Of a stretch of 64,000 bases of DNA, positions 5,409-54,428 are shown in pieces. Position 1 is the first letter of the stretch, and each line of letters opens with the position of its first letter. The stretch is taken from positions 310,001 to 374,000 of the forward strand of contig NZ_FODC01000002.1 in assembly GCF_900110275.1 (NCBI RefSeq). The letters are read 5' to 3'. A program made the position numbers and the translations under genes. The notes under the pieces were generated by a model. The model was not told the origin of the DNA and ran no database searches. It was given only the letters and a program-made list of their open reading frames with translations. Source of the DNA: Duganella sp. CF517 (lineage in GTDB: Bacteria; Pseudomonadota; Gammaproteobacteria; Burkholderiales; Burkholderiaceae_D).

Positions 5409-8400
5409 ATGGACAGCCACCAGTATTCCGCACACCCGCACACCGAACAGCAGCCGTTGGCGCAGTTTTTCGCCCACAGTCCCTACTTCGCTTTTTCGAT
5501 CGACGAGGGCGGCAAGCTGCTTTGGTTTAACGGCCACACCCGCGCGGCGCTCGGCCCCATCGCCGACGCGGCACCGGCCGCCGCGCTGTATGCGACCTGG
5601 TCGGTGCCGATGCTCAAGGACGAGGCGCTGCCGACGGCGCGCGCGCGCGGCTACTGGCGCGGCGAGCTCGAGCTGGTGAGCGCCGGCGGCGTGCCGCACA
5701 TGGTGACGCAGACGGTGGAGTGGCGCCGCGCCACGGCGCACCAGCCGGGCCACTACCTGTGCCTGTCCTACCCGCTCGACGACTACGACGTGTTCGAGTC
5801 GCGACTGCGCTTCAAACACCTGTTCGAAGCCCATCCGCAACCGATGTGGGTGTATGACTTGCAAACGCTACAGTTCCTGGTCGTCAACGCCGCCGCCGTC
5901 GCCCACTACGGCTACACGGAGGCCGAATTCCTGCGGATGACGATCAAGGACATCCGCCCGCCCGAACAGCACGAGCGGCTCGCGCGCAACCTGGCCGCCG
6001 CCCCGGTCAAGGGCCCCGAGCGCGCCGGCAGCTGGACCCACATCAAGCGCGACGGCAGCCACATCGACGTCGAGATCTCGTCGCACTCGGTGACCATCGC
6101 CGGCCATCCGTCGCGCTTCGTGGTGGTCCACGACGTCACCGAACAATTGCGCATGGCGGCCGAGCTGCACGCGTCGCGCGAGCTGAAGAACCTGGTCATC
6201 AACCAGATCCCGCACCAGATTTTCTGGAAGGGACTCGACGGCAATTACCTCGGCGGCAACGCCGTGTTCGCTCGCGCCGCCGGCCTCGCCAGCACCACGC
6301 AAGTGCCGGGCAAGCGCGACGAGCAATTGCCGTGGGCGCACAACGCCGAGGCCATCCGCGCCGAGGACAGCGCCATCGTCGCCACCGGCCAGCCGCAGCT
6401 GAACCGCCAGGACCACATGACCTGGGCCGACGGCACGCTGCACTGGTACCTGATCAACAAGCTGCCGTTCCACGACCAGCACGGCAACATCATCGGCGTG
6501 CTGGGCATGATCGAGGATATCAGCGAGCGCAAACAAAACGAGACCACGCTGCAACTGCGCGGGCGCGCGCTCGACGCCAGCGTCAACGCCATCGTCATCA
6601 CCGCGTACGGCCCGGACGGCGACCTGATCGAGTACGCCAATCCGGCCTTCGCCCGCCTGTTCGGCCACAGCGGCGCCGACACGCGCGGCCGGCGCCTGGA
6701 GCAACTGCTCGGCAACGACGCCCACAGCGAGGACGGCGAGGCGCTGCGCGCGGCGCTGCAATCGCGCCAGGAGGTGACGTTGCTGATGGGCGCGCGCCAC
6801 CGCGACGGCACGCCGTTGTGGACCCAGCTGCACCTGGCGCCGGTGCACACCGGCGGCGCGGGCAGCGCAATCGGCCACCACGTCTGCGTGCTGACCGACC
6901 TGACCGCAACCATCAACTACCAGGAACAACTGGAGCACCAGGCCAGCCACGACGCGCTGACCGGCCTGCCCAACCGCGCGCTGTTCGGCGACCGCATGGC
7001 GCAGGCCATCAGCTACGCCCAGCGCTACGGCCACGGCGTGTGGGTCGCGTTCATCGACCTCGACAACTTCAAGCTGGTCAACGACAGCGAAGGCCACCAG
7101 GCCGGCGACGAGCTGCTGTGCACCATCGCCGCGCGCCTGAGCGCCTGCCTCGACACGGGCGACACCGTCGCCCGGCTCGGCGGCGACGAGTTCCTGCTGC
7201 TGATGCCGGACGCCGACGGCCGCGCCATGTCGCTGCTGCTCGAGCGCGTGCTCGACGCCGTCAGCGCGCCGGTGGCGCTGGGCAAGCAACTGTTCACCAT
7301 CACCTGCAGCATCGGCGTCAGCGTCTACCCCCACGACGGCGCCGAGCCGCAGCAACTGCTCAAGCACGCCGACATCGCCATGTACCGCGCCAAGGAGGCC
7401 GGGCGCAACCAGATCCAGTTCTACGAGGCGGCCATGCACACCCGCATCGCTGAGCGCACCATGATCGAGGCCGAGCTGCGCCACGCGCTGCCGCGCAACG
7501 AATTGAGCTTGCAGTACCAGCCCAAGGTCGATTTGCGCAGCGGCGCCGTGGTCGGCATGGAGGCGCTGTTGCGCTGGCGCCATCCGACCATGGGCATGGT
7601 GTCGCCGGCGCGCTTCATCGGCGTGGCCGAGGAGACCGGCATGATCGTGGCGATCGGCCGCTGGGTGCTGCGCACCGCCTGCGCGCAAAACAAGGCCTGG
7701 CAGGCGGCCGGGCTGACGCCGCAGCGGGTGGCCGTCAACCTGTCGGCGCGCCAGTTCCGCGATCCGGCGCTGACCGGCGAGATCCTGGCCGCGCTGGCCG
7801 ACAGCGGCCTGGAGGCGCAATACCTGGAGCTGGAGCTGACCGAGAGCCTGATGATGCACAACGTCGGCGAGGCGGTGGCGGTGGTCGAGCAGCTCAAGCG
7901 GCTCGGCATCGCGCTGTCGATCGACGACTTCGGCACCGGCTATTCGAGCCTGGCCTATCTGAAGCAGTTCCCGGTCGACTACCTGAAGATCGACCAGTCC
8001 TTCACGCGCGAAATGCTGACCGAACCGAAGGTGGCCGCGATCGTGCGCTCGGTGCTGGCGCTCGGCCACAGCCTGGGCTTCAGGGTGATCGCCGAGGGCG
8101 TCGAGACGGAGGCGCAACTGGCCTACCTGCGGCGCCATGGCTGCGACGAGATGCAGGGCTATTTCTTCAGCCGGCCGTTGCCGCCGGAAGATTTCGCCGA
8201 ACTGCTGCGGCAGGAGCGCGGCCTGGCGCCGCGGCCGGACGTGGCGCCGCGTGCGCAACAAACCTTGCTGCTGCTGGACGACGAGCCGTCGATCCGCTCG
8301 TCGCTCAAACGCCTGTTCCGGGTCGACGGTTACCGCATCCTCAGCGCCGAGACGGCCGAGCAGGCCTTCGACCTGCTCGCCATGAACGAGGTGCAGGTGG

Positions 8401-8663
8401 TCATCAGCGACCAGCGCATGCCGGGCATGCACGGCACCGAATTCCTCAGCCGGGTCAAGAGTCTGTACCCGCGCACGATACGCATCATCCTGTCCGGCTA
8501 CGCCGATCTGGAATCGGTGCTCAATGCCATCAATCGCGGCGAAATCTACCGCTTCTACACCAAACCGTGGGACGACCAGACCCTGCGCGACAACATCCGC
8601 GAAGCGTTCGAATACCACCGGCTGCTGCATGCCGGCGGCGAAGGTCGGGAGGCGACGCGCTGA
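5409..8663 (+). CDS. PAS-PAS-PAS-PAS-GGDEF-EAL protein with C-terminal receiver domain
   Basis: A cyclic-di-GMP signalling protein of 1084 residues. Up to four PAS-like sensor segments occupy about residues 1-500 (for example FEAHPQPMWVYDLQ and NQIPHQIFWKGLDGNYLGG). The GGDEF cyclase motif is intact near residue 591 (LGGDEFLLL) and the EAL phosphodiesterase motif near 718 (MEALLRWRHP), with DDFGTGYSSL and EGVET also present, so both activities are possible. After a short linker a response-regulator receiver domain (about 950-1070) has DDE, a likely phosphoacceptor Asp1001 (SDQRMPG) and a KPW loop. Start 5409 was chosen because upstream in-frame codons are antisense to the neighbour; no strong ribosome site is seen. 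No transmembrane segment. Confidence 0.93.
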   Translation: MDSHQYSAHPHTEQQPLAQFFAHSPYFAFSIDEGGKLLWFNGHTRAALGPIADAAPAAALYATWSVPMLKDEALPTARARGYWRGELELVSAGGVPHMVTQTVEWRRATAHQPGHYLCLSYPLDDYDVFESRLRFKHLFEAHPQPMWVYDLQTLQFLVVNAAAVAHYGYTEAEFLRMTIKDIRPPEQHERLARNLAAAPVKGPERAGSWTHIKRDGSHIDVEISSHSVTIAGHPSRFVVVHDVTEQLRMAAELHASRELKNLVINQIPHQIFWKGLDGNYLGGNAVFARAAGLASTTQVPGKRDEQLPWAHNAEAIRAEDSAIVATGQPQLNRQDHMTWADGTLHWYLINKLPFHDQHGNIIGVLGMIEDISERKQNETTLQLRGRALDASVNAIVITAYGPDGDLIEYANPAFARLFGHSGADTRGRRLEQLLGNDAHSEDGEALRAALQSRQEVTLLMGARHRDGTPLWTQLHLAPVHTGGAGSAIGHHVCVLTDLTATINYQEQLEHQASHDALTGLPNRALFGDRMAQAISYAQRYGHGVWVAFIDLDNFKLVNDSEGHQAGDELLCTIAARLSACLDTGDTVARLGGDEFLLLMPDADGRAMSLLLERVLDAVSAPVALGKQLFTITCSIGVSVYPHDGAEPQQLLKHADIAMYRAKEAGRNQIQFYEAAMHTRIAERTMIEAELRHALPRNELSLQYQPKVDLRSGAVVGMEALLRWRHPTMGMVSPARFIGVAEETGMIVAIGRWVLRTACAQNKAWQAAGLTPQRVAVNLSARQFRDPALTGEILAALADSGLEAQYLELELTESLMMHNVGEAVAVVEQLKRLGIALSIDDFGTGYSSLAYLKQFPVDYLKIDQSFTREMLTEPKVAAIVRSVLALGHSLGFRVIAEGVETEAQLAYLRRHGCDEMQGYFFSRPLPPEDFAELLRQERGLAPRPDVAPRAQQTLLLLDDEPSIRSSLKRLFRVDGYRILSAETAEQAFDLLAMNEVQVVISDQRMPGMHGTEFLSRVKSLYPRTIRIILSGYADLESVLNAINRGEIYRFYTKPWDDQTLRDNIREAFEYHRLLHAGGEGREATR

Positions 8664-8682
8664 ATCCCGCGTATGGCGCCGC

Positions 8683-9942
8683 TTATTTTTCCGCCGCGCC
8701 CAGCGGCGCCAGGCGGCGCAAGCGCAACGCCACCAGCATCGCCAATGCCAACGCCAGGCCCAGCACCATGACCACGCCCGGCCAGCCGTCGCGGCCCCAC
8801 ATGACGCCGGTGGCCGAACCGATCACGCTCGAACCGAGATAATAGAAGAACAGGTACAGCGCCGACGCCAGCGCCTTGCTGCTCGTGGCGCGCCGTCCGA
8901 CCCAGCTGCTGGCCACCGAGTGGGTGGCAAAGAATCCGTAGGTGAACAGGGCCACGCCCAGCAGGATCAGCGGCAGCCAGTTGGACAAGGTCAGCAGCAA
9001 TCCGGCGATCATGATGGCCATCACCGCCCACAGCACGTGGCGGCGGCCGAACCGGTCGGCCAGGCGCCCCGCCCAGACCGAGCTGTAGATCCCCAGCAGA
9101 TACAGGAACGACACCGCCCCGACCAGGCTGTGGTTCAAGCCGAACGGCGCGCCCAGCAGGCGGTAAGCGATGTAGTTGTACAGGCTGACAAACGCGCCCA
9201 TCAACAGGAAGGCCAGCGCGAACAGCCACGGCATGCCGCGATCGGTCAAATGCAGCTTGAAACCCGAGGCCATCGAGCGCAAGCCGCCGCCGGACGGCAC
9301 GAAGTGGCGCGACGGCGGCAGGCTGCGCCAGAATTCCCACGCCGCCAGCACCCCCGCCACGCCGACCGCGCCGACCGCCAGCCGCCACGAAAAATAGTCG
9401 CTCAGCACCGACGTGATGACCCGCCCCGCCATGCCGCCGAAGGCGCTGCCGCTGATGTACAGGCCCATCGACAGGCCCAGCGAGCCGGGCTCGATCTCCT
9501 CGCCCAGGTAGGCCATGGCGATGGCCGGCATGCCGCCCAGCGCGATACCCAGCAGCGCGCGCATCGCCAGCAGCTGCGGATAATTGTGGGCGAAAGCGCT
9601 CAGGATCGTCATCACCGCCGCGATCGCCATCGCCGCCACCATCAGCGGCTTGCGGCCAAGGCGCTCGGACAGCGCGCTCGACGCCACCAGCGACAAGGCC
9701 AGCGCGGCGGTGGATACCGACAGCACCATGCTGCTCTGCGCGGCGCTCAGCGCGAATTCGTGGGACAACAAGGGCATCAGCGGCTGCACGCAATACAGCA
9801 GCGCGAAGCAGGAGAAGCCGCCGAAGAACATCGCGCGGTTGCTGCGTTTGAATTCGGCGCTGCCGGCGGCGATGCGCGGCGCCGGCGCGCACGATGCCGG
9901 CGGCGCGGAGAAGGAGGACGCCGAAGCTGTGCTTGAAGACAT
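8683..9942 (-). CDS. MFS transporter (YnfM-like)
   Basis: A 12-helix major facilitator of about 419 residues. The Ser/Ala-rich cytosolic N-terminus leads into the first helix (FFGGFSCFALLYCVQPLMPL); the loop 2-3 signature is visible as SERLGRKP, and a long central loop separates the two halves. The plan resembles E. coli YnfM and related drug or metabolite exporters. Start 9942 (MSSSTAS) has CGGAA upstream; a start 18 bases earlier does not. The gene diverges from a LysR regulator, a typical arrangement in which the regulator controls the pump. Substrate unknown. Confidence 0.9.
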   Translation of the reverse strand: MSSSTASASSFSAPPASCAPAPRIAAGSAEFKRSNRAMFFGGFSCFALLYCVQPLMPLLSHEFALSAAQSSMVLSVSTAALALSLVASSALSERLGRKPLMVAAMAIAAVMTILSAFAHNYPQLLAMRALLGIALGGMPAIAMAYLGEEIEPGSLGLSMGLYISGSAFGGMAGRVITSVLSDYFSWRLAVGAVGVAGVLAAWEFWRSLPPSRHFVPSGGGLRSMASGFKLHLTDRGMPWLFALAFLLMGAFVSLYNYIAYRLLGAPFGLNHSLVGAVSFLYLLGIYSSVWAGRLADRFGRRHVLWAVMAIMIAGLLLTLSNWLPLILLGVALFTYGFFATHSVASSWVGRRATSSKALASALYLFFYYLGSSVIGSATGVMWGRDGWPGVVMVLGLALALAMLVALRLRRLAPLGAAEK

Positions 9943-15475: not shown

Positions 15476-15601
15476 ATTTATCGGCGCCATAACCTCCCGG
15501 GTTCGATGGCATCATTTGCAAAATTACTTGACTAGAATCGGTAATATTTTCTATATTCAAGCACGGTGGGAATCATCAGAGTTGCTAGAAAGGCAATCGG
15601 A

Positions 15602-17458
15602 ATGGAGGTACTGCTCGCGCAGCGACAAATGTTTTCCCCGCCTAAATCGGTCTGGTGGGCCGGCATCATGCTGTCCCTGGGGGTGGGCGCGCTGTGCTAT
15701 GTGGCCGCCTATAAAATGGTCGAATACGACGCCGGCGAACGTTTCATGCACCAGGCGCGCAACGCCCAGTACCACATCAGCTCGCGCATCGACACCTACG
15801 CCGACGTGCTGCGCGCCACGGCCAGCTACTTCGACGCCAGCGATAGGGTCGAACGCGAGGACTTCCACCGGTTCGTGCGCGGATTGAAACTGGCGACCCA
15901 GTTTCCCGCGTTGGTCAGCGTCAACTACGCCGAGTACGTCACCGACGCCCAGCGCGAGAATTTCGAAAAGGTATCGCGCCGCAGCGGCGACGGCACGGCC
16001 AACGGCTATCCCGACTACGTGATCCAGCCGTCCGGCCGCCGCGCCGACTATTCCGTCATCACGATGATCGAGCCGATCGCGGCGTTCCGCTGGCGGGTCG
16101 GCCTCGACATCACGCACAAGCCGGCGGTGGCGCAGGCGCTGGCCCACGCCCGCGACACCGGCGAGATCAGCACGTCCGGCAAGCAGATCGACATGGACAG
16201 CTTCGGCCAGGGCGGCGGCATGGCGATCCGGCTGCCGCTGTACCGCAAGGACATGCCGCTGACCACCATCGGGGAGCGCCGCGCCGCCTACCGGGGCTCG
16301 GTCGGCATCGGCTTCAGCGTGCCGCGCCTGGTGCAACTGGCGATGGACCAGATGCAGGTGCGCGACGTGCGCCTGCGCCTGTACGACGGCGGCGAAGGCA
16401 ACGACCGCTCGTCGGCCTCGTCCGCGCCAGCGCTATTGTTCGACAACAAGGTCAACGGCGGTGAGAAAGTGCGCTCCGCCGACCAGTTCGGCATCGTGTT
16501 GCCGCTGACGTTCAACGGCCGCCAGTGGCATGCCCACTTCAGCGCGCCCAAGGCGGCGTGGTCCAGCCGCTTCGACCGCTTCCTGCCGTGGCTGGCCATG
16601 TTGAGCGGATTCATCGGCTCGATGCTGTTCTACCTGCTGATCCACACCTTGTCGTCGTCGCGCATGCGGGCGATCAAGATGGCCAAGGTGATGACCAAGG
16701 AACTGCGCGACAGCCAGGCCAAGCTGCAGCAATCGCACCACAAGCTGCGCCGGCTGGCAGCGCACGCCGACCAGATCAAGGAGCAGGAACGCAAACGCAT
16801 CGCGCGCGAAATTCACGACGACCTGGGCCAGAACCTGCTGGTGCTGCGGATCGAGGCGGACATGCTGGCCACCCGTACCCGCCACCGCCATCCGCGCCTG
16901 CACGCCCGCGCCAAAAGCACGCTCAGCCAGATCGACAGCACCATCAAAAGCGTGCGCCACATCATCAACGACCTGCGTCCGAACGTGCTCGATTTGGGCC
17001 TGAACGCCGCCGTCGAATGGCAGATCGCCCAGTTCCGCCAGCGCTCCGGCATGGTGTGCGAGCTGATCGAACACCAGCGCGACATCCGCATCGACGATCA
17101 TTGCGCCACCGCCTTCTTCCGCGTGCTGCAGGAATCGCTGAGCAATATCGTCCAGCACGCGCACGCCAGCCTGGTGCGGGTGGAGTTGCGCCAGGCCGGC
17201 GGCATGCTGAGCATGACCATCACCGACAACGGTGTCGGCATGCGGGCAAGCAATCGCAACAAGGTGGGCTCGTTCGGCCTGGTCGGCATCGAGGAACGCA
17301 TCAGCTTGCTAGGGGGCGTCTGCTCCATCATCGGCAGCCCCAACGCGGGCACCACGGTCGCCATCTCGGTGCCGATCGACCACGTGCCGCCGCCGTCGCA
17401 CGACGATCTCAAGGATATCAACGACACCGGCCACTTGAGAGCCGACGTCATCGCCTGA
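15602..17458 (+). CDS. CHASE-domain sensor histidine kinase (NarL-type HisKA_3)
   Basis: A 618-residue membrane histidine kinase. One transmembrane helix near residues 17-37, an extracytoplasmic CHASE-like domain (about 60-290, with FRWRVGLDI typical of CHASE), a second helix near 330-350 (WLAMLSGFIGSMLFYLLIH), a short coiled coil, then HisKA_3 with the phospho-acceptor His405 in AREIHDDLGQNLL, and an HATPase_c domain (QESLSNIVQHAHA, DNGVGM, GLVGIEERI). Start 15602 has AAAGG upstream; the GTG at 15566 has none. No response regulator lies beside it, so it is an orphan here. The next gene, 156 bp downstream, is the Cys-repeat protein. Confidence 0.93.
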   Translation: MEVLLAQRQMFSPPKSVWWAGIMLSLGVGALCYVAAYKMVEYDAGERFMHQARNAQYHISSRIDTYADVLRATASYFDASDRVEREDFHRFVRGLKLATQFPALVSVNYAEYVTDAQRENFEKVSRRSGDGTANGYPDYVIQPSGRRADYSVITMIEPIAAFRWRVGLDITHKPAVAQALAHARDTGEISTSGKQIDMDSFGQGGGMAIRLPLYRKDMPLTTIGERRAAYRGSVGIGFSVPRLVQLAMDQMQVRDVRLRLYDGGEGNDRSSASSAPALLFDNKVNGGEKVRSADQFGIVLPLTFNGRQWHAHFSAPKAAWSSRFDRFLPWLAMLSGFIGSMLFYLLIHTLSSSRMRAIKMAKVMTKELRDSQAKLQQSHHKLRRLAAHADQIKEQERKRIAREIHDDLGQNLLVLRIEADMLATRTRHRHPRLHARAKSTLSQIDSTIKSVRHIINDLRPNVLDLGLNAAVEWQIAQFRQRSGMVCELIEHQRDIRIDDHCATAFFRVLQESLSNIVQHAHASLVRVELRQAGGMLSMTITDNGVGMRASNRNKVGSFGLVGIEERISLLGGVCSIIGSPNAGTTVAISVPIDHVPPPSHDDLKDINDTGHLRADVIA

Positions 17459-17614: not shown

Positions 17615-18400
17615 ATGAACGTCATCAACGCCCTGGATCTGGACCCAATCAAGGTCAAGCTGATGCACCAAGAGTCTGGCGAAGGCTGGTCGCTGGAACG
17701 TGCCAACGCTGTCGAGTTTGAATATCGCCGGTTCCTGACGCTGATGAAAAAATACCCCCACGAGCAGACCTCGCCGCTGGTCGACGTGGACACGTTCTGG
17801 CACTACCATATCCTGGATACGATGAAGTACGCGGCCGATTGCGAGGCCGTGTTCGGCTACTTCCTGCACCACTTCCCGTACGTCGGCATGCGTGGCGAGG
17901 CGGACGAAGCTGCGCTGGCGCGCATTGGGCAGCGGATGAAGGAACTGTACGAAGCGGAATTCGGCGAGGACTATGTGCGTCCGGCAAAGCATGCCTTCGA
18001 GGGTGCGACCCAGGCCGCCGCCTTCTGTGGCGCTCCTGAAATGCAAGCCAGCGCCTTCTGCGGCGCGCCTGAAAAGCAAGCCAACGCCTTCTGTGGCGCA
18101 CCTGATAAGCAGGCCAACGCCTTCTGTGGCGCACCTGATAAGCAGGCCAACGCCTTCTGTGGCGCACCTGATAAGCAGGCCAACGCCTTCTGCGGCGCAC
18201 CGGAAAAACAAGCCAACGCTTTCTGTGGCGCACCTGAAAAACAAGCCAACGCCTTCTGCGGCGCACCTGATAAGCAAGCCAACGCCTTCTGTGGTTCCCC
18301 TGAAGAGAAAGTCGCTTTTTGCGGCAGCCCGGAAAAGGCCGTCGTCGCCAAAGCGCCGAATCAGCCAGGTTTGTTCAGCAGCCGTCCCAGCCTGAGCTAG
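17615..18400 (+). CDS. Glycine-rich-domain-like protein with ten Cys-containing AFCG(A/S)P repeats
   Basis: A 261-residue protein of two parts. Residues 1-135 form a compact globular domain with the signature FWHYHILDTMKYAADC near residues 61-76, which I recall from the GRDP-like (PF07173) family; this family call is moderate. Residues 136-243 are ten tandem repeats: eight of 11 residues, AFCGAP(E/D)KQAN with small variation, and two shorter AFCGSPE units. Each carries one Cys. The tail is FSSRPSLS. GAGGAG precedes the ATG and a perfect FNR box lies further upstream. There is no signal peptide and no recognisable modification enzyme beside it. Possible roles are a metal- or redox-binding array, or a multi-core peptide precursor; neither is shown. 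Confidence 0.85.
   Translation: MNVINALDLDPIKVKLMHQESGEGWSLERANAVEFEYRRFLTLMKKYPHEQTSPLVDVDTFWHYHILDTMKYAADCEAVFGYFLHHFPYVGMRGEADEAALARIGQRMKELYEAEFGEDYVRPAKHAFEGATQAAAFCGAPEMQASAFCGAPEKQANAFCGAPDKQANAFCGAPDKQANAFCGAPDKQANAFCGAPEKQANAFCGAPEKQANAFCGAPDKQANAFCGSPEEKVAFCGSPEKAVVAKAPNQPGLFSSRPSLS
18020..18343 (+). repeat. 33-bp tandem coding repeat array
   Basis: Eight in-frame 33-bp units (18020, 18053, 18086, 18119, 18152, 18185, 18218, 18251) are followed by two 30-bp units (18284, 18314). Units 3-5 are nearly identical at the nucleotide level, indicating recent duplication or homogenisation; GAx and TGT/TGC variation is mostly silent or Glu/Asp. No spacers, so it is not a CRISPR array. Confidence 0.95.
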
Positions 18401-31162: not shown

Positions 31163-31182
31163 CAATTGATGTACATCAATTG
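31163..31182. promoter_or_regulatory. Perfect FNR/Anr box inside a 20-bp palindrome
   Basis: TTGATGTACATCAA (31166-31179) matches TTGAT-N4-ATCAA perfectly, and the flanks extend it to CAATTGATGTACATCAATTG, a perfect 20-bp palindrome. The centre is 64 bp before the ATG of the 85-residue gene and 97 bp before the lipoprotein ATG, so it can serve either divergent gene; AATAAT on the minus strand at suitable distance favours the former. Confidence 0.7.
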
Positions 31183-31269: not shown

Positions 31270-31815
31270 ATGTACATCACTAAGCAAAATAAATGGCTTG
31301 CGGTTTTATGTATGGCGGCATTGGCCGGATGCGCGTCGGACCGCATGTCCGACAGTTCGTCGAGCGCCAACACCGGTTATACGGCGCCGGGGACGACGGC
31401 AACCTCCAGCACCGCCGGCACCGGCAGCCCAAGCAGCTCGGGGACCGGGGAAACCGGCAGCAGCACGGCCGGCACCGGCGGCACGGGGAGTTTGGGAAGC
31501 GCGGGCGGCAGCGGCACGTTGGGTGGCGCGGGCGCGATGGGCGGCACAGCCGGTAGCGGCAGCAGCAGTTCCGCACAAACCTCGTATGGAACGGTGCAAG
31601 CCATCGACCAGATGCAACGTCAGGATGCGGGAATGGGTTCGGTGGGCGCGGCGGCCGTGGGCGGCACGATGGGCGGTTCGCCGACCGACCGCGTGTACCG
31701 CGTCACCGTGCGGATGGACGACGGCAGCAGCCAGCTGGTGGTGGTCGACGCCATGCCGGGCTACAAAATTGGCGATCGGGTCCGTTACAACAACGGAACC
31801 CTGACGCCGTATTAA
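31270..31815 (+). CDS. Gly/Ser/Thr-rich lipoprotein
   Basis: A 181-residue lipoprotein. The signal peptide ends in the lipobox LAGC (MYITKQNKWLAVLCMAALAGC). Residues 22-100 are low-complexity Gly/Ser/Thr, and residues 104-181 form a small beta domain (YGTVQAIDQM, DRVYRVTVRMDDG, GDRVRYNNGTL) like the tail of SlyB/OmpA-linked lipoproteins. GGGGAGG precedes the ATG. An AAGTGG/CCACTT dyad lies at 31228-31244. Its stop overlaps that of the convergent TraB gene by 4 bases. Outer-membrane location is likely. Confidence 0.85.
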   Translation: MYITKQNKWLAVLCMAALAGCASDRMSDSSSSANTGYTAPGTTATSSTAGTGSPSSSGTGETGSSTAGTGGTGSLGSAGGSGTLGGAGAMGGTAGSGSSSSAQTSYGTVQAIDQMQRQDAGMGSVGAAAVGGTMGGSPTDRVYRVTVRMDDGSSQLVVVDAMPGYKIGDRVRYNNGTLTPY

Positions 31816-54214: not shown

Positions 54215-54428
54215 GCGGGGGTCAAGTCTGACATTCGGACACGAGCTGATAGGTATCGCTTTCGGCACCAGGGACGCAAGGTGTTCAAAGATGTGTTCGT
54301 GTCCGAATGTCAGACTTGACCCCCGCCTGTTTTCGGACACGAGCTGATAGGTATCGCTTTCGGCACCAGGGACGCAAGATGTTCAAAGATGTGCTCGTGT
54401 CCGAATGTCAGACTTGACCCCCGCCTGT
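54215..54428. repeat. Tandem long-palindrome repeat element
   Basis: Copy 1 has a perfect 30-bp inverted repeat: 54215-54244 (GCGGGGGTCAAGTCTGACAT then TCGGACACGA) and 54297-54326, with a 52-bp internal segment. Copy 2 (54332-54428) is a tandem duplication of 97 bp differing at 2 positions from copy 1 (54234-54330) and lacking the outermost part of the left arm. A partial remnant (TGACCCCCGACTG) follows, and GGGGTCAAGTCTG recurs in the MFS gene at 35309. No ORF is inside. It looks like a non-autonomous mobile or REP-type element. Confidence 0.85.

Follow-up and report, generated by a model that had tools for sequence, protein, structure and literature searches.

Tandem aromatic-Cys/Ser units behind a GRDP-like domain and beside a CHASE sensor: a possible multi-core peptide precursor in Duganella and its relatives

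The window analysed here, a stretch of 64,000 nucleotides from Duganella sp. CF517, contains a gene for a small protein that joins a GRDP-like domain to an array of ten Cys-containing units, next to a gene for a CHASE-domain sensor histidine kinase (Table 1). We tentatively interpret the array protein as a low-oxygen-induced, self-contained multi-core peptide precursor whose matured units may serve as signal or cargo for the CHASE sensor, an interpretation that we consider possible rather than probable. It draws on what can be read from the sequences, namely the array and its motif, the constraint on the units, the interchange of Cys and Ser, the CHASE linkage, a putative operator and relatives in which domain and peptide appear to be split. 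The motif, the constraint, the interchange, the linkage and the split forms fit the logic of fused and split peptide precursors better than that of a metal or thiol array. The gene has no described function and is found almost universally in a large and well-sampled bacterial group.

Table 1. Features of the array locus, in window coordinates.
Feature	Position	Strand	Basis or remark
CHASE-domain sensor histidine kinase (CHASE, HisKA_3, HATPase_c)	15566..17458	+	Pfam; 157 bp upstream of the array gene
Putative FNR/ANR-type operator TTGATAAATATCAA	17523..17536	+	exact TTGATN4ATCAA palindrome; centre ~85 bp before the ATG
Gene of the array-bearing protein	17615-18400	+	ORF, ATG start, 261 aa
GRDP-like N-domain, residues 1-124, all-alpha	17615..17986	+	borderline PF07173, AF2 model, BFVD match
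Signature VDxxWHxHxLxTxxY...C...FG..xHHxP, residues 58-88	17786..17878	+	candidate metal or catalytic site
Ten tandem AFCG(A/S)P units, each with a 4-5-residue linker	18020..18331	+	TRF array; local form of the A-[FYWH]-[C/S] array
C-terminal tail LFSSRPSLS	18371..18397	+	conserved; family form [FL][YF]xxRPxL

The array gene is preceded by an AGGAG ribosome-binding site. As the initial annotation had described, ten Cys occur in tandem near-identical units after a globular domain. Eight of the units read AFCGAP and two AFCGSP, with one Cys each (residues 138, 149, 160, 171, 182, 193, 204, 215, 226 and 236); the eleventh Cys of the protein, C76, lies inside the N-domain. On the DNA level the array is a 33-bp tandem repeat with 8.4 copies and 91% matches, and its score of 426 (TRF) is the highest of any tandem repeat in the window. 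A tandem pair of 98-bp units with 97% identity was also observed at 54234-54428. The tail of the protein holds ten aromatic-Cys dyads and one FS, compared to 1.7 after shuffling the tail. Comparing unit with unit we obtained pS = 0.40 and pN = 0.09, with pN dropping to 0.02 in the AFCG(A/S) core and reaching 0.14 in the linker, so that the core shows a pN/pS of ~0.05. This comparison was anchored by the repeat period and is the sole pN/pS result that we rely on: the per-position values across the whole family are biased, since they were anchored on the dyad itself, and were set aside, as was a regular-expression count of decayed units that was too loose for interpretation. Frequent synonymous and rare amino-acid differences between the units indicate purifying selection on each unit, beyond recent copying. 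The tail is predicted to be disordered (pLDDT ~30 in the full-length AF2 model). Searches of the window protein against NCBIfam and the PDB sequences gave no match, the Rfam search returned no RNA element and the N-terminus, judged by eye, is unlike a signal peptide.

We then compared the array with those of its relatives. The family occurs in 60 of 61 genomes of the genus, and GRDP-like matches were found in 122 of 294 genomes of the GTDB family (13 of 44 sampled genera), a minority of them being distant GRDP-like proteins; elsewhere in the phylum such matches are thinly spread. The tail motif is species-specific: we encountered AFCGAP, AYCGSA, AHSGV, AYSGRV, AYSGVP, AWSARA, AFSTRV, AWCTRT, AYCSSP and AYCMIRP, among others. 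What stays constant in 107 array-bearing relatives (proteins with at least three units) is the core A-[Y/F/W/H]-[S/C], while the linkers vary. Across 117 proteins we counted 1094 dyads of an aromatic residue or His followed by Cys or Ser, compared to 186 after shuffling, and the preceding residue is Ala in 93% of the cases. The 107 arrays divide into 84 of the Ser type, usually without any Cys in the tail, and 23 of the Cys type, and nearly all are pure in this respect; one array (L152) alternates YS with WC. On a tree of the N-domain, which has few columns and many open forks, the Cys/Ser state switched at least five times, and two of the switches are forced by well-supported branches. The RPxL motif near the C-terminus is present in all 84 Ser-type and in 7 of the 23 Cys-type proteins. 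The number of units ranges from 3 to 24 with a median of 9, and even the window gene and its three closest relatives have 10, 11, 12 and 15 Cys units. The selection for copy number that had been proposed is therefore not borne out, as unit number varies freely. A divergent GRDP-like protein from a genome of the same genus (L085, ~7854-8720) carries 13 Cys in tandem PAACMNAAPK units; it lacks the aromatic dyad and a CHASE neighbour.

The assignment of the N-domain as GRDP-like, also made in the initial annotation, is borderline by profile and stands on the level of the fold. The window protein scored 22.3 bits against a PF07173 cut-off of 22.7 (23.4 when counted over the frame), and the match is confined to the C-terminal third of the profile. 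The full-length AF2 model is poor owing to the disordered tail; the N-domain folded alone with more diverse rows gave an all-helical model with a mean pLDDT of 87.4 and a pTM of 0.81. Its top-ranked BFVD hit comes from Harvfovirus and is annotated as GRDP-like (E = 2e-4, TM 0.79), and rank 3 is a further giant-virus GRDP protein. The predicted domain thus has a fold common to annotated GRDP-like proteins, which backs the assignment. Searching PDB structures with the same model (Foldseek/VIA-align) yielded only weak, unrelated helical matches. The domain is conserved across the relatives, with ~73-95% identity to the window N-domain within the genus. In 23 sequences including phage homologs D59, W62, H63, H65, L67, T69, Y72, C76, H85, H86 and P88 are invariant; several of these fall within FWHYHILDTMKYAADC (residues 61-76 of the window protein). 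The conserved His, Asp and Cys residues of this signature may form a metal site. We found no paper on the function of bacterial GRDP-like proteins or on the combination of a GRDP domain with an array.

The most stable neighbour of the array gene is the CHASE sensor, whose product in the window matches CHASE with an E-value of 8.1e-35, HisKA_3 with 9.5e-14 and HATPase_c with 1.8e-10. The initial annotation had suggested looking for conserved neighbours, and a CHASE protein was indeed encountered within 4 kb of 94 of 95 distinct array-type genes, although many of these loci are related and 94 is not the number of independent events. The lone array without such a neighbour is a jumbo-phage protein picked up by the motif count. 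The window genome (7.06 Mb) has only seven CHASE domains, and among the non-array GRDP-like genes 5 of 37 have a CHASE neighbour, all five from genomes of the array clade. A stronger argument for the linkage than the count are the three gene arrangements and two output types in which it is found. In loci of the genus glnS is followed by the CHASE histidine kinase, then on the same strand by one or two copies of the array gene, and finally by convergent small genes. In other genera the glnS context is gone and the CHASE kinase is kept, now in divergent orientation. The replicons of Variovorax and Cupriavidus have in this place, on the same strand, a gene for a CHASE-GGDEF-EAL protein. The genetic linkage between array and CHASE is thus stable beyond synteny, and the part common to all neighbours is the extracytoplasmic CHASE ligand domain, whereas the output differs (histidine kinase or GGDEF-EAL). 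We rejected glnS and the small downstream genes as partners, as they are lost at loci that keep the array next to CHASE.

In plant cytokinin receptors the extracytoplasmic part that binds the ligand is a CHASE domain (PMC1863423, PMC7814049), and the linkage suggests that the product of the array gene is sensed outside the cell. Variation of the CHASE domain and of the unit motif correlated with a partial r of 0.35 under one control and of 0.13 under four; co-variation beyond shared ancestry is weak, and after this shrinkage we do not use the correlation as evidence. In some genomes two arrays with differing motifs lie beside one sensor. In its own clade the array gene has no conserved neighbour that is an exporter, a protease or a known modification enzyme, and the earlier remark that no modification enzyme lies nearby holds at the window locus. 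For this reason we did not file the array protein in any known RiPP class.

The palindrome between the two genes is of the TTGATN4ATCAA type, which we take to be the canonical FNR/ANR/DNR site. NO-responsive DNR proteins recognise the same site as FNR. The window genome contains 22 exact sites of this form, whereas the reversed control sequence has only one. Allowing up to one mismatch, we found the box upstream of 79 of 121 relatives, 43 of them exact, where 0.4% would be expected from shuffled sequence, and it is conserved in the upstream alignments of the relatives. A canonical-type site has been reported for Fnr1 of the related bacterium Herbaspirillum (PMC5934665). Judged from the operator, oxygen control of the array gene is likely; where the two genes are divergent, it is also conceivable that the box acts on the sensor gene. 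A second exact palindrome of this type (TTGATGTACATCAA) occurs at 31166-31179, ~90 bp before an ORF of 181 aa with a lipoprotein-like start (31270-31815, forward strand).

Outside the array clade we found GRDP-like genes without a tail directly 3' of small peptide genes. Seven loci from one gammaproteobacterial clade contain ORFs of 50-76 aa with a common LxEILxxPS-like leader, a core pattern of C[NS]GxCxSGxC and core sequences such as CNGKCSGGVC or NCSGNCQS; the ORF ends a few nucleotides before the GRDP-like gene or overlaps it. At an eighth locus (L261) the peptide ORF is a frame-broken remnant. TonB receptor and TonB genes adjoin several of these loci. Loci L256-L263, with the GRDP-like gene near position 6000 in most, themselves resemble small metallophore or RiPP loci and are undescribed. 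Plasmids of Halomonas and Pseudomonas savastanoi encode annotated peptides of 42-44 aa that end in GGGHCQGGGSW or GGGGHCQGGGGW, followed by the GRDP-like gene and then by a multi-TM protein, which is MatE-like in Halomonas. These plasmid loci with GGG(G)HCQGGG(G/S)W ends (L211:5719-6381 and L214:5712-6381) adjoin, in Halomonas, an AHL synthase and a LuxR-type gene. A weaker, single case is Stanieria, where an ORF of 43 aa with two FC dyads lies 3' of the GRDP-like gene and a methyltransferase gene is located further along. Most split loci have no other recognisable modification enzyme adjoining the peptide gene, which leaves the GRDP-like protein as the only adjacent candidate. Other GRDP-like proteins carry Cys-rich or Gly/Cys-rich C-termini in cis.

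Combining these observations, we propose the following sequence of events for the precursor. When oxygen falls, an FNR-family regulator would bind the box and switch the array gene on. The product would consist of the small helical domain and a disordered tail of repeated cores, each with an aromatic residue or His directly before a single Cys or Ser. The GRDP-like domain would serve these units in cis, as their leader and probably also for maturation or metal binding, as the same domain may do in trans in other bacteria beside small leader-core peptides. The matured units, attached or cut free, would get outside and be signal or cargo for the neighbouring CHASE sensor. A multi-core precursor with a globular leader was one of the candidates of the initial annotation and appears to gain support from the unit-wise purifying selection, the split relatives and the adjacent sensor. 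Two marks of a multi-core RiPP precursor are present, a leader-like conserved N-terminal part and repeated short cores under purifying selection unit by unit; an adjacent modification enzyme, protease or exporter was not seen at the array loci. This absence counts against the precursor, together with an N-terminus that does not look like a signal peptide. A gene present in 60 of 61 genomes at one fixed place is also unusual for a natural-product pathway, two different arrays beside one sensor are not readily accommodated and the domain has no match among solved folds. To our knowledge catalysis by a GRDP-like domain has never been demonstrated. The split systems differ from the arrays in core chemistry and lack CHASE, and thus the function of the domain could have shifted.

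Two other explanations remain live beside the precursor. The tail could be a disordered cytoplasmic scaffold that is multivalent through its aromatic residues: these would be repeated binding motifs or stickers and would hold a partner (a kinase, RNA or a GGDEF-EAL protein) or lead to condensates at low oxygen, with neither cutting nor modification. The predicted disorder, the interchange of F, Y, W and H, the variable linkers, the free copy number and the lack of an evident secretion signal or of processing enzymes nearby all agree with this. However, it leaves unexplained why Cys or Ser always follows the aromatic residue and why the partner is constant only in its extracytoplasmic CHASE part, and arrays of the His type would make poor stickers; we regard it as a serious contender but rather unlikely. 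The strict presence of one nucleophile per unit, with Cys and Ser exchanged repeatedly, and the conserved His/Asp/Cys signature of the N-domain would also suit a carrier or store, in which each nucleophile bears an acyl, phosphate, sugar or metal-linked adduct added by the GRDP domain or by an unlinked enzyme. We found neither a transferase neighbour nor a GRDP precedent for this, and the CHASE link stays unexplained, which makes it an improbable though not negligible explanation.

A metal-binding array or thiol redox buffer, as initially suggested, would be in line with the ten evenly spaced Cys of the window protein, and a role in handling metal could be read into the FNR-type control and into the TonB receptors next to Cys-rich split relatives. 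Cys is not kept in the homologous arrays, though: in most of them each unit has Ser and the tail lacks Cys, while architecture, tail and CHASE neighbour are all the same. With 84 of 107 arrays of the Ser type, a Cys-specific metal or thiol role cannot be the function of the family. The window units moreover have a single Cys each, without CxxC or His clusters, and we consider this explanation very improbable. Homologs lacking the repeat Cys, a repeat number that is not maintained and frequently broken frames had been named beforehand as arguments against a functional Cys array; the first two were found, whereas the frame is open in all collected arrays. An expansion of low value, in which slippage keeps the units alike and the tail is functionless, would account for the near-identical DNA repeats and the wide variation in unit number and linker sequence. 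It is contradicted by the substitution pattern in the core of the window array and by open frames and a dyad that persists across genera with unrelated linkers, and we give it hardly any credence.

Several known systems resemble the array family in part. Plant burpitides are known in fused and split forms of one maturase, the BURP-domain copper peptide cyclases (PMC12186524). They are similar in that some species have the enzyme or leader domain fused to short repeated cores, and others have it encoded apart from small precursor peptides; they differ in that the present proteins are bacterial, have a predicted all-alpha GRDP-like domain and an aromatic-Cys/Ser core, and adjoin a CHASE sensor. 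Giant-virus and bacterial PF07173 proteins share the fold and the WHxH...HHxP signature and often have a low-complexity Gly/Cys-rich C-terminus. Plant GRDP proteins (AtGRDP1/2) carry glycine-rich tails, but without evenly spaced A-[FYWH]-[C/S] units. Cys-containing cores and conserved clusters are also typical of MNIO-modified Cys-rich RiPPs (bufferins, thiooxazole metallophores, methanobactins), though a survey of MNIO makes no mention of GRDP (PMC12452194). In contrast to those systems no MNIO enzyme was recognised beside the GRDP-like genes, and most array relatives use Ser. Methanobactin loci have a TonB receptor, similar to the split GRDP-like relatives. The AIP/ComX-type pheromones and yeast alpha-factor are secreted peptide precursors with a linked sensor. 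They share with the arrays near-identical repeat units within a species (as in alpha-factor), divergence of the motif between species and a linked receptor with an extracellular domain; the array protein differs in having no visible secretion signal or processing enzyme, and its recognition by the receptor is putative.

The pattern joins three questions: the role of the GRDP-like domain, in plants too, the ligands of bacterial CHASE domains and whether bacteria have a BURP-like fusion of a maturase to multi-core substrates. Each question can be approached directly with small proteins. In its widest form the proposal would make the GRDP-like domain a new kind of maturase or leader module for peptides. 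The Burkholderiales fusions would then give a lineage-specific peptide signal that is regulated by oxygen and sensed through CHASE, and elsewhere the domain would act in trans on Cys-rich peptides that TonB receptors handle; we consider this doubtful as a whole. Further GRDP-like proteins were observed in large phage genomes (L248-L254, L215), with long His/Ser/Cys/Gly-rich tails of which several end in CGGGGCGGGGD-like sequences. The window genome itself has two further GRDP-like genes (G000:C12:115203-115358 and G000:C10:316234), the former (L002) with a hydrophobic segment at the N-terminus and a tail resembling CGGGGCGGGGGD.
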